Below are positions 10,944 to 15,540 of a DNA stretch of 64,000 nucleotides, in pieces. This DNA comes from an uncultured Flavobacteriales bacterium (lineage in GTDB: Bacteria; Bacteroidota; Bacteroidia; Flavobacteriales_E; Vicingaceae), in NCBI GenBank assembly GCA_905479995.1, contig CAJQON010000018.1, forward strand, positions 62,001 through 126,000. The letters run 5' to 3'. Numbering within the stretch: the first letter of the stretch is position 1; each line of letters opens with the position of its first letter. The notes under the pieces were generated by a model. That model was not told where the DNA came from. It ran no database searches and was given only the letters and a program-made list of their open reading frames with translations. The translations under genes were made by a program, and so were the position numbers.

Positions 10944-11294
10944 ATGAAAAAGAGTTATCTTTTGACGTCATTATTTGTCGTTCTATCCGTGTTTTCTTAC
11001 GCGCAATCCGACCAACAAGTTTCTAATTCTGAACTTACCATTACACAAGACGGCAAACGTCTTGAGGCTACCATTGTATGTTTAGACGCACTCGAGGCGC
11101 CAACAAAATATAATGAGTTCGCGAAGCAATTCACTTCAATGCCTAATTTTCCTAAAAACAGTAGCGCAATTACTAACGCTCAGCTGCGCAGTAGTATCGA
11201 TACTTGGTTTAAAAATAACCCTACTGTTATTGACCAAGTTCGATCTGAACAAAAAAAAGCTCACGACATACTTTACGGTCCTAGACCGCAATAA
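10944..11294 (+). CDS. small exported protein of unknown function
   Basis: 116 residues. Residues 1-20 are a signal peptide (MKKSYLLTS, hydrophobic core, cleavage after SYAQ). The mature part is polar and probably helical at the end (SIDTWFKNNPTVIDQVRSEQKK). It has one cysteine (TIVCLDA). I do not recognise a family. It lies 20 bp before the adhesin gene and reads the same way, and no terminator separates them, so it may be the first gene of the adhesin-PorP/SprF transcript. Confidence 0.65.
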   Translation: MKKSYLLTSLFVVLSVFSYAQSDQQVSNSELTITQDGKRLEATIVCLDALEAPTKYNEFAKQFTSMPNFPKNSSAITNAQLRSSIDTWFKNNPTVIDQVRSEQKKAHDILYGPRPQ

Positions 11295-11314: not shown

Positions 11315-11680
11315 ATGAAATACCTATTAAAATTAACAGTTGTTGCATTAATCGCTATTGGATCTAATCCTTTTGCAACCGCACAAGTAGCAATTGCACC
11401 ATGTACTCATATCCGTACATATACAGCAGCAGTAAGAGGATATCACTTTACTGCACCTACAACATTTACCGTTTGTGGCATTTATGTGCCAGATGATGCA
11501 TCTACCTTATTTCAAAGTGTATCCATTGTTCGGTTTACTGCAGGACCCCCTCCTGCCTTTGCTGGAACAACGAACAATTTTGTAACCTTATTCCAAAATT
11601 TAAATTACGCTCCAAACAACATGATTGCAGTGCCGAATATTGTTATAAATGCTGGTGATATTATTGGTGTTTATGGTTGA
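11315..11680 (+). pseudogene. N-terminal part of a T9SS adhesin, ended by an in-frame TGA
   Basis: 121 codons from the ATG at 11315 to a TGA at 11678-11680. Residues 1-24 are a signal peptide ending FATAQ. The remainder (YHFTAPTTFTVCGIYVPDD, SIVRFTAGPPPAF, NAGDIIGVYG) is the first part of a beta-rich N-terminal domain. The same frame continues without a break after the TGA (RGANSTNSYG, then SGMQFDLAAG) into the next entry, so this is one gene interrupted by one stop codon rather than two genes. The change could be a nonsense mutation from TGG, TGT, TGC or GGA, a sequencing error, or a site of readthrough. An upstream TTG at 11300 is a worse start. Confidence 0.7.
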
Positions 11681-11767
11681 AGAGGGGCTAATTCTACTAA
11701 TAGTTATGGTGCTGTAAATTGTGGTCTAACGATTAATGGCTTTCCCGCAGTTGCACAAAGAAGTGGA

Positions 11768-14515
11768 ATGCAATTTGATTTAGCTGCTGGACCAGGAATG
11801 CATGATATTTGGAGTGAAGTAAATGGTAACATTGGGAGAGTTACACTCTATACCAATTGTACTCCTTGTCCTCCTCCGGCAGCAATTAACGCTATAACAG
11901 GTCCAACAACAGTATGTGAAGGGGATACTTTAACGTATACTGTACCTGCTCAGACTGGTGCAACTGCATACAATTGGACAGTTCCTGCTGGAGCAACAAT
12001 TATATCAGGGCAAAATACAACAAGCTTAAGTGTTAATTGGACTACAGCTCCTGGTGGACAAATTTGTGTTGACTGGACTGATGCTTGTCCTCTTACAAGT
12101 CCTCAAACCTGTTTAAATGTTACGGTTAATGCAACACCAACTATGACTACTCCAACAAATATTATTGTTTGTGCAGGAGATACTGTACCGCTTTCTGCAT
12201 TCGTGAGTAACCCAATTGGAGGCTCATTTGCTTGGGACAATTCAAATACAGCAATTGGTCTAGGGGCGAATGGAGGAGGAAATATACCTGCTTTTGTTGC
12301 TACTAACACCACTACCACTGCTATTGTTGGAACTGTTACTGTTACTCCAACTGTTGGGATTTGTTTAGGAACGCCTATTACTTATACAATTACAGTAAAC
12401 CCTAGCCCAATACCTGTTGTTCCAACAAACTTAACGTATTGTCCAGGCGTAACAGTTCCTGCAAGTGTTTATACTAGTAATCCGGCAGGAGCAACCTATT
12501 CGTGGACCAATTCTAATCCCGCAATTGGTTTGGGTGCAGCTGGAGCTGGAAATACACCTTCGTTTACATCGGCCAACCCTTCAGGAACTGCAATTGTAGG
12601 AACAATTACTGTTATTGGAACATTAAACGGATGTGCAAGTGCACCTGTTACTTACACCATAACCATTGACCCAACACCTGCTGCACCAACAGCCCTTAGT
12701 GTAACAACCTGTCCAAACAACATTACTACACTTACTGCAACAGCACCAGGAGGAAATTATGAATGGTTTGATGCTGCAGTTGGAGGAAATCTTCTTATTG
12801 CAAATGCAAGCTACACAACACCAGCATTAGCCGCTACAAAAACGTTTTATGTACAAACAACCTTAAATGGATGTTTAGGACCTAGAACTCCTGTAACAGT
12901 TACAATTGGAAATGTAATTATCGCAAATGCTGGTCTTGACGATACAATTTGTGATGGGGCTTCTTATAATTTATTAGCCACTCCAAATGGACCAACCTAT
13001 TCTTATTCATGGGATGAGTTACCAGGACCTTTAGCTTTTTCAACTGTATTTAATCCTGCTGTCTCACCAACAATTCCAACTTCTTATGTACTTGAAGTAA
13101 CAGACATAAACAACTGTGTTTCCTTGGATACTGTAGAATTATTTATTTACGCTATTCCAACCATGGCAACACCTACAGATATTGTAGTCTGTAATGGAAC
13201 AACTATTTCCCCATCTAGCTACGCTAGTACTCCTGCTGGAGGAACTTTTACATGGACTAATTCTGTTCCAGGTATAGGTTTAGCTGCAAATGGAGCAGGA
13301 AACCTTCCTTCTTTTGCTGCTGTAAATGTATCTTCAACACCAATTGTTGCGACCATTACAGTTACCCCAACAGTTAATGGTTGTGTAGGAACTCCTGTCA
13401 ATTACACAATCACTGTAAACCCAGGTGCCGTGGCTAATGTTGGATCAAATTTAACTGTTTGTAACGGAGACCCTGTACCATCATCAACTTTTTCTAGTGT
13501 TCCTGCTGGAGGAACTTTTTCTTGGACCAATACAAATATTAACATTGGTTTAGCGGCTAACGGTTCAGGAAATACTCCACTATTTAATGCTGCCAATCCA
13601 TCAGCTGTGCCAATTACTGGTAGTATTTCGGTAGTTGCCACAACAAATGGTTGCCCAGGAGCACCATCAGTTTATACAATAACCGTTAATCCAGCTGTAA
13701 CAGGTATTAACAATATATCGATTTGCCAAGGAGATAGTGCTCTAATTGGTGGTACTTATTATTCAGCTTCAGGGGCTTATATTGACAGTTTAACTACTAC
13801 AATAGGATGTGACAGTATTGTTACTAATAACTTAACCGTTAATCCTGTTGTGTCAAATACCTTTTATCAAACTATTTGTAATGGTGATAGCGCGCTCATT
13901 AATGGTAATTATTATTCAATAGGCGGAACTTACCCTTTTACTTTAACCAGTGCTGAAGGATGTGATAGTCTTGTAATTTATGAGTTATTTGTTGATACTG
14001 CTTTCCCTGTTAATATCTTAGCGTCAACTACGGCTCTTAATCTTGGTCAAAGCTCAGGCTTACAGGCATATACTGGTCAGGCTGGAACGTCTTATTTATG
14101 GTCTCCCGCAACAGGATTAAGCTGTGTACCTTGCCCTACAACAGTGGCAACACCTCCTACTAGTATGTGGTATTATGTGACTTCTACTAACGAAAACGGC
14201 TGTGAAACAATAGATAGTATCTATATAGAAGTGGATCCTACCACCAACCTATATATCCCAAATATATTTTCTCCAAACGGAGATAAACAGAACGATGTAT
14301 ATAGAGTTAGAGGAAAAGGTATAGATCTTTTTAACATAGCAATATATAATAGGTGGGGACAAAAAGTATTTGAATCGGATGATATAACAAAAGGTTGGAA
14401 TGGAACCAAAGAAGGAGCTACACTAAATCAGGGAGTATTTGTTTACAAAGTAAATGTAACCATGTATGATGGCACTGAGTATAACGAAACTGGAAACATA
14501 ACCCTTATCAGATAA
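11768..14515 (+). CDS. PKD-like repeat adhesin with T9SS type B (gliding motility CHU_C) C-terminal domain, main part
   Basis: 915 residues counted from an internal ATG; the true gene begins at 11315 and the frame is open from 11681. After the end of the N-terminal domain come PKD/Ig-like repeats of about 90 residues (each with a CxG or CNG turn, 'SNPAGATYSWTNSN', 'IGLGA.GAGNTPSF' and 'TYTITVNP'), then two ~47-residue repeats with CQGDSALI/CNGDSALI and GCDS, and finally a ~90-residue CHU_C/type B sorting domain (YIPNIFSPNGD, IYNRWGQKVFES, GWNGT, GVFVYKVNV). Type B proteins stay attached to the cell surface through a partner PorP/SprF protein, which is the next gene (overlap TAATG). Without readthrough this part would lack a signal peptide. 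Confidence 0.85.
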   Translation: MQFDLAAGPGMHDIWSEVNGNIGRVTLYTNCTPCPPPAAINAITGPTTVCEGDTLTYTVPAQTGATAYNWTVPAGATIISGQNTTSLSVNWTTAPGGQICVDWTDACPLTSPQTCLNVTVNATPTMTTPTNIIVCAGDTVPLSAFVSNPIGGSFAWDNSNTAIGLGANGGGNIPAFVATNTTTTAIVGTVTVTPTVGICLGTPITYTITVNPSPIPVVPTNLTYCPGVTVPASVYTSNPAGATYSWTNSNPAIGLGAAGAGNTPSFTSANPSGTAIVGTITVIGTLNGCASAPVTYTITIDPTPAAPTALSVTTCPNNITTLTATAPGGNYEWFDAAVGGNLLIANASYTTPALAATKTFYVQTTLNGCLGPRTPVTVTIGNVIIANAGLDDTICDGASYNLLATPNGPTYSYSWDELPGPLAFSTVFNPAVSPTIPTSYVLEVTDINNCVSLDTVELFIYAIPTMATPTDIVVCNGTTISPSSYASTPAGGTFTWTNSVPGIGLAANGAGNLPSFAAVNVSSTPIVATITVTPTVNGCVGTPVNYTITVNPGAVANVGSNLTVCNGDPVPSSTFSSVPAGGTFSWTNTNINIGLAANGSGNTPLFNAANPSAVPITGSISVVATTNGCPGAPSVYTITVNPAVTGINNISICQGDSALIGGTYYSASGAYIDSLTTTIGCDSIVTNNLTVNPVVSNTFYQTICNGDSALINGNYYSIGGTYPFTLTSAEGCDSLVIYELFVDTAFPVNILASTTALNLGQSSGLQAYTGQAGTSYLWSPATGLSCVPCPTTVATPPTSMWYYVTSTNENGCETIDSIYIEVDPTTNLYIPNIFSPNGDKQNDVYRVRGKGIDLFNIAIYNRWGQKVFESDDITKGWNGTKEGATLNQGVFVYKVNVTMYDGTEYNETGNITLIR
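12131..13695 (+). repeat. four diverged copies of a ~90-codon PKD-like module
   Basis: Copies run roughly 12131-12405, 12406-12675, 13150-13423 and 13424-13695. Shared marks are a cysteine strand (IIVCAGD, LTYCPGV, IVVCNGT, LTVCNGD), a W in 'FAWDNSN / YSWTNSN / FTWTNSV / FSWTNTN', then IGLGAN/IGLAAN, G-N-x-P and a closing TYTITVNP-like strand. Two unlike modules sit between copies 2 and 3. Boundaries are approximate. Confidence 0.75.
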
Positions 14516-15540
14516 TGAAGAAATTAATTGTCATATGTTTACTTGTTCAAGGGCTTTTTGGGTATGCTCAAGATATCCATTTTAGTCAATTCATGAACTC
14601 ATCCTTTTTGTACAACCCAGGACAAACAGGAATGATTAATGGCGACCATCGAGCGTTATTGAGTTACAGAACGCAATGGGGAGCAATTGCTGCTCCTTAC
14701 GAAACATATTCTTTTGCGTACGACACCAAAATTTTTAATAACAATAGTAAAAAAGCCAAAATGGGAATTGGCTTAGGAGTGTATAAAGATGTTGCTGGTG
14801 ATACTGAGCTAGGAACTACATCAATTACATTATCTACTAGTGCAATTATAAAGCTGGATAATCTCAATAAATTATCTTTAGGATTGCAAGGTGGTATAAT
14901 GCAAAATTCGATCAACTCTAATATGCAGTGGGGAAATCAATACGATGGGAATGGATATAATGCCCTTATTAATTCTGGTGAAGATGGAACATTAAACTCA
15001 AATCCTACTGCAGGAGATTTTAATGCTGGAATAGTTTGGAATTATGGAACATCAGAATCTACTATTACCTCTAACGATTTATTTAGTATGCAAGCAGGGC
15101 TTTCTGTTAGCCATTTAAGTAGACAAAAAATACAGTTCACCAATTACAAAGAGTCAATTTATAACAGAGTTACATTACACGGGAAAAGTTTTATAGGGAT
15201 AAAGAGTACTAACTTATCGGTTATTCCAGGATTTATGTTTCAAAAACAAGGTCCTTCAAGCGAATTAATTTTCGGAACTTATTTTCGATCTATGCTTAAA
15301 GCGGAATCTCGTTATACTGGTATGTTTAAAGAAAGCGCACTCTCTCTCGGGATTTTTTATAGAGCAGGAGATGCACTTGTCCCAAAATTAGGGTTAGAAA
15401 TTATGAACTTTAATTTAGGTGTAAGTTACGACCTTACTTCTTCTGGTTTAAACGGAGGAAATGCATTGGAAATTTCTTTACAGTACCTTGTTCCTGTTGA
15501 AGACAGATACGGAAAAGGAACCGCTCCTAAAATGTATTAA
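14515..15540 (+). CDS. type IX secretion system membrane protein, PorP/SprF family
   Basis: 341 residues. Signal peptide 1-18 (cleavage after GYAQ), then DIHFSQFMNSSFLYNPGQTG, the standard PorP/SprF opening, followed by ALLSYRTQWG and a long series of amphipathic strands with conserved glycines, as expected for an outer-membrane beta barrel. In gliding bacteria SprF is needed for export and surface attachment of its own type B adhesin, SprB. Here it overlaps the adhesin gene by one base, so it is most likely the dedicated partner of that protein. Ends YGKGTAPKMY. Confidence 0.93.
   Translation: MKKLIVICLLVQGLFGYAQDIHFSQFMNSSFLYNPGQTGMINGDHRALLSYRTQWGAIAAPYETYSFAYDTKIFNNNSKKAKMGIGLGVYKDVAGDTELGTTSITLSTSAIIKLDNLNKLSLGLQGGIMQNSINSNMQWGNQYDGNGYNALINSGEDGTLNSNPTAGDFNAGIVWNYGTSESTITSNDLFSMQAGLSVSHLSRQKIQFTNYKESIYNRVTLHGKSFIGIKSTNLSVIPGFMFQKQGPSSELIFGTYFRSMLKAESRYTGMFKESALSLGIFYRAGDALVPKLGLEIMNFNLGVSYDLTSSGLNGGNALEISLQYLVPVEDRYGKGTAPKMY

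Follow-up and report, generated by a model that had tools for sequence, protein, structure and literature searches.

In the stretch of DNA analysed here (64,000 nucleotides from an uncultured member of the Bacteroidota, below called the window), a T9SS type B adhesin-like gene is interrupted by a single in-frame TGA, which is probably an ordinary one-base nonsense substitution at a position normally occupied by serine. We infer that the substitution is recent and has caused loss of function in this strain. Judging from the sequence, we are most likely dealing with a pseudogene of very recent origin or with a strain-level nonsense polymorphism. An earlier sequence-only reading had left four options for this stop, and among them a recent nonsense mutation fits the data best, a sequencing error is possible, and phase variation and readthrough or recoding gained no support.

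An adhesin gene with one internal stop codon

Translation of the forward strand from 11315 to 14515 gave exactly one internal stop, the TGA at 11678-11680 (codon 122), which stands between the residues IIGVYG and RGANSTNSYG and is followed by 944 sense codons and the terminal TAA, the frame being otherwise stop-free. This confirms the single in-frame TGA in an otherwise intact frame that had been described from the sequence; the 945 undamaged codons counted there after the TGA are indeed undamaged, but their number includes the terminal stop. The chance of an open frame of 944 codons in a random sequence of the same composition is about 1e-30, thus allowing us to dismiss a chance juxtaposition and to treat the two halves as one gene. 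The N-terminus of the adhesin, MKYLLKLTVVALIAIGSNPFATAQ, is a signal-peptide start as judged by eye. The features of the locus are as follows.

10944-11294, forward strand: small secreted protein, 116 aa including a signal peptide (ORF directly upstream of the adhesin)
11315-14515, forward strand: T9SS type B adhesin-like gene, interrupted (translation; PKD/Ig/CHU_C domains; intact orthologue L015:9635-13909)
11387-11860, forward strand: N-terminal beta domain without a Pfam family (13 intact homologues aligned; an intact relative modelled with AlphaFold)
11678-11680, forward strand: in-frame TGA (codon 122); Ser, Ala, Thr or Asn in homologues (translation; homologue alignment)
11873-12106, forward strand: PKD_6 domain (PF19408, E 7e-19)
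12677-12907, forward strand: Ig_7 domain, CHU_C associated (PF19081, E 1e-19)
13187-13426, forward strand: PKD_5 domain, best of 4 stretches (PF19406, E 7e-10)
14255-14512, forward strand: T9SS type B sorting domain, CHU_C / TIGR04131 (TIGR04131 50.3 bits vs. cut-off 35; CHU_C E 5e-17)
14515-15540, forward strand: PorP/SprF-family outer-membrane partner, intact (TIGR03519, 158 bits)

Both profile scores at the 3′ end agree with the sequence-only reading, which had taken the type B sorting signal to be undamaged and the PorP/SprF partner to be intact. The terminal stop of the adhesin is overlapped by the PorP/SprF ATG in the junction TAATG. The adhesin thus bears, over the cut-off, the C-terminal TIGR04131/CHU_C domain expected of T9SS type B cargo. 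In such cargo the signal peptide is in frame with this domain; here the TGA at 11678 lies between the two, whereas in the orthologue from L015, a congeneric Flavobacteriales MAG, they share one frame.

The adhesin family is already known. Proteins with type B C-terminal domains cross the outer membrane through the T9SS, and their anchoring is thought to occur via a PorP-like partner, as in the pairs SprB-SprF and PG1035-PorP (PMC9143113). The window adhesin resembles these proteins in its signal peptide, Ig/PKD-like repeats, CHU_C/TIGR04131 C-terminus and a PorP/SprF gene directly downstream. It differs from them in having a nonsense codon and an N-terminal domain without a Pfam family, and also in that its putative pairing with the neighbouring PorP/SprF is what we infer from gene order alone.

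The N-terminal beta domain had no match in Pfam. Its AlphaFold model, obtained with an intact relative, comprises twelve strands and is confident (pLDDT 88), yet a fold search of the PDB gave nothing with E <= 0.001. In this model the TGA site falls near the end of the sixth strand, and the stop is predicted to take away the second half of the domain (half of the predicted strands), all the repeats and the sorting signal.

The syntenic orthologue in L015 is intact (1424 aa) and lies in the same gene order as in the window, namely aldehyde dehydrogenase, small secreted protein, adhesin, PorP/SprF and thioredoxin-like protein, the one difference being an extra gene between the last two. This indicates that the adhesin gene is a normal member of the neighbourhood in the genus, and that only the window copy is seen broken. 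The small secreted protein had no family match in Pfam, NCBIfam or PHROGs. It occurs in the identical set of congeneric genomes as the adhesin N-domain and in equal copy numbers (nine matches of each, the window's own included, with three of each in one genome), and it looks like a dedicated partner. L017, a Vicingaceae MAG, has two such pairs of small protein and adhesin in tandem (L017:447-5013); their N-domains are of the same kind and their repeats differ, which points to a shuffling of modules behind an unchanging head.

The stop position in homologues and the decoding of UGA

An alignment of homologous N-terminal domains at the TGA position, proposed in the sequence-only reading as a check, was run. 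The domain is present in a single copy in its own genome; six congeneric genomes yielded eight further copies (60-77% identity) and three other genomes another five, more distant (about 39-51% identity), repeated records of the same locus being taken once. All 13 homologues have a sense codon at the site (seven Ser, four Ala, one Thr and one Asn), and the residues flanking it (IG.YG-x-R) are nearly invariant. The window TGA is one substitution away from a serine codon, and such a serine codon is found there in one homologue. This is what a nonsense pseudogene should show, and the syntenic orthologue is intact. In a readthrough gene the stop should be conserved among relatives, whereas among the N-domain matches in 10 genomes it is seen only in the window's own copy.

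The alignment bears directly on UGA readthrough, where a near-cognate tRNA (usually tRNA-Trp) would rarely insert a residue, few full-length adhesins would be made, and the stop would act as a selected expression dial. The frame is indeed intact downstream of the TGA, UGA is the rarest terminal stop among the 221 long ORFs sampled (TAA 156, TAG 51, TGA 14), and in-frame stops have been proposed to serve as temporary regulation (PMC7918605). However, a young mutation equally predicts an intact frame, and the homologues have small residues, never Trp, at the position of the stop. In the tRNA-Trp of this genome the anticodon is the normal CCA and its stem has 5 bp. No stimulatory hairpin lies downstream of the stop, where the RNA folds slightly worse than its shuffles (z +1.34), and no Rfam element follows the TGA, the sole Rfam match in the window being a tRNA-Cys. 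We therefore consider readthrough improbable, and still more so a selected low-level switch through which full-length adhesin would be rare and borne by a minority of cells, in this species only. Basal leakiness of UGA is possible for any gene.

Genuine recoding of UGA, either as selenocysteine or through reassignment of the code, has the open frame in its favour and nothing more. Profile searches of the genome gave nothing over the cut-off for SelB and detected RF2 above its cut-off (with one TAA flagged at or in the match). The tRNA-Sec look-alikes proved to be ordinary tRNA-Ser, tRNA-Tyr and tRNA-Phe, and a UCA anticodon was absent among 24 tRNA matches (150 of the 291 candidates scored). 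None of SelB, tRNA-Sec and a SECIS-like element, which would mark a selenoprotein or a recoded UGA, was thus found. Moreover, other genes of this genome terminate in TGA, and our own codon-usage scan, the top candidates of which were inspected, revealed no second gene interrupted in frame in 464 kb of the genome and the flanks of 30 type B sorting domains. All inspected candidates were either normal adjacent genes (RuvA/SprA, MoxR/DUF58 and similar cases) or antisense shadow frames. Within the parts of the genome scanned, the adhesin TGA is an isolated event, and recoding is very unlikely.

Taken together, the data lend no support to the UGA readthrough envisaged in the sequence-only reading: the stop is unshared, the search for Sec or suppressor machinery gave nothing, and a stable structure downstream is absent. 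The same is true of the phase-type variation considered there. The change is a substitution, not slippage, in a non-repetitive sequence without a slippage-prone repeat, and a silent donor cassette for gene conversion is absent, as the only N-domain match in the genome is the gene itself.

Age of the stop and reliability of the base call

If selection has not acted on the part downstream of the TGA since the loss, the absence of further stops limits the neutral divergence to at most about 2.3-3.1% (95%); the absence of frameshifts would set a tighter limit. At conserved columns, the window's private changes show no excess after the TGA (4 of 47, vs. 9 of 75 before it). In comparison with the nearest homologue, dN falls far short of dS both before and after the TGA. 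With dS near or at saturation, the relative-rate and dN/dS tests are underpowered, and dN/dS reflects the long-term history and does not capture the time since the stop. The lack of excess private changes and the low dN on both sides fit a recent loss, though an erroneous TGA, or maintenance of the gene by readthrough, would leave the remainder just as intact.

In-frame stops are widespread in bacterial genes and mostly short-lived (Belinky et al. 2021, PMC7918605), and the adhesin TGA fits this picture. Just as in the published cases, one nonsense substitution is found in an otherwise intact conserved gene and looks short-lived. Unlike those cases, the window stop is known from one strain.

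The main rival to a recent nonsense allele is a consensus artefact: the base may have been miscalled or misassembled, or a minor strain's allele chosen, in which case the dominant population would have the gene intact. The TGA base call rests on one consensus sequence from one strain. The draft genome consists of 59 contigs (estimated completeness 98.2%, contamination 1.1%), and the group's named relatives are metagenome assemblies. The frame is perfect apart from the TGA, and the interruption is a one-off in the 464 kb scanned, as an error would also be. On the other hand, the genome contains no second copy of the domain that could cause mis-assembly. Consensus errors are rare in deep short-read assemblies, and long-read errors are mostly indels, seldom one clean substitution. 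We consider an artefact unlikely, though to be taken more seriously than readthrough or recoding.

Predicted consequences for the adhesin and its partner

With a recent nonsense allele as the preferred reading, the following course of events may be proposed. A single-base substitution would have struck the gene for a type B T9SS surface adhesin at a serine position, such that translation would halt after 121 residues. The product would be an exported fragment that breaks off about halfway through the first beta domain and has no sorting signal, without which its anchoring should be impossible. Beyond the background leakage at UGA, the adhesin would be absent from the cell surface. A restart at the ATG at 11768, downstream of the TGA, would yield at best a protein of 915 aa, which would not be exportable because it has no signal peptide. 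The expression of PorP/SprF may also drop, since its start codon overlaps the adhesin stop and it may be translated less.

As it stands, the interruption of the adhesin is an ordinary one, and the frame 11315-14515 should be annotated as interrupted, not as recoded or as a two-part gene. It suggests that one substitution is enough to silence a T9SS surface adhesin and leave the PorP/SprF partner intact; should the stop prove polymorphic, this would add a further example of adhesin loss inside a population. The genome (3.1 Mb) has 43 matches to type B sorting domains, 39 of them over the cut-off, which amounts to a large repertoire of surface proteins.
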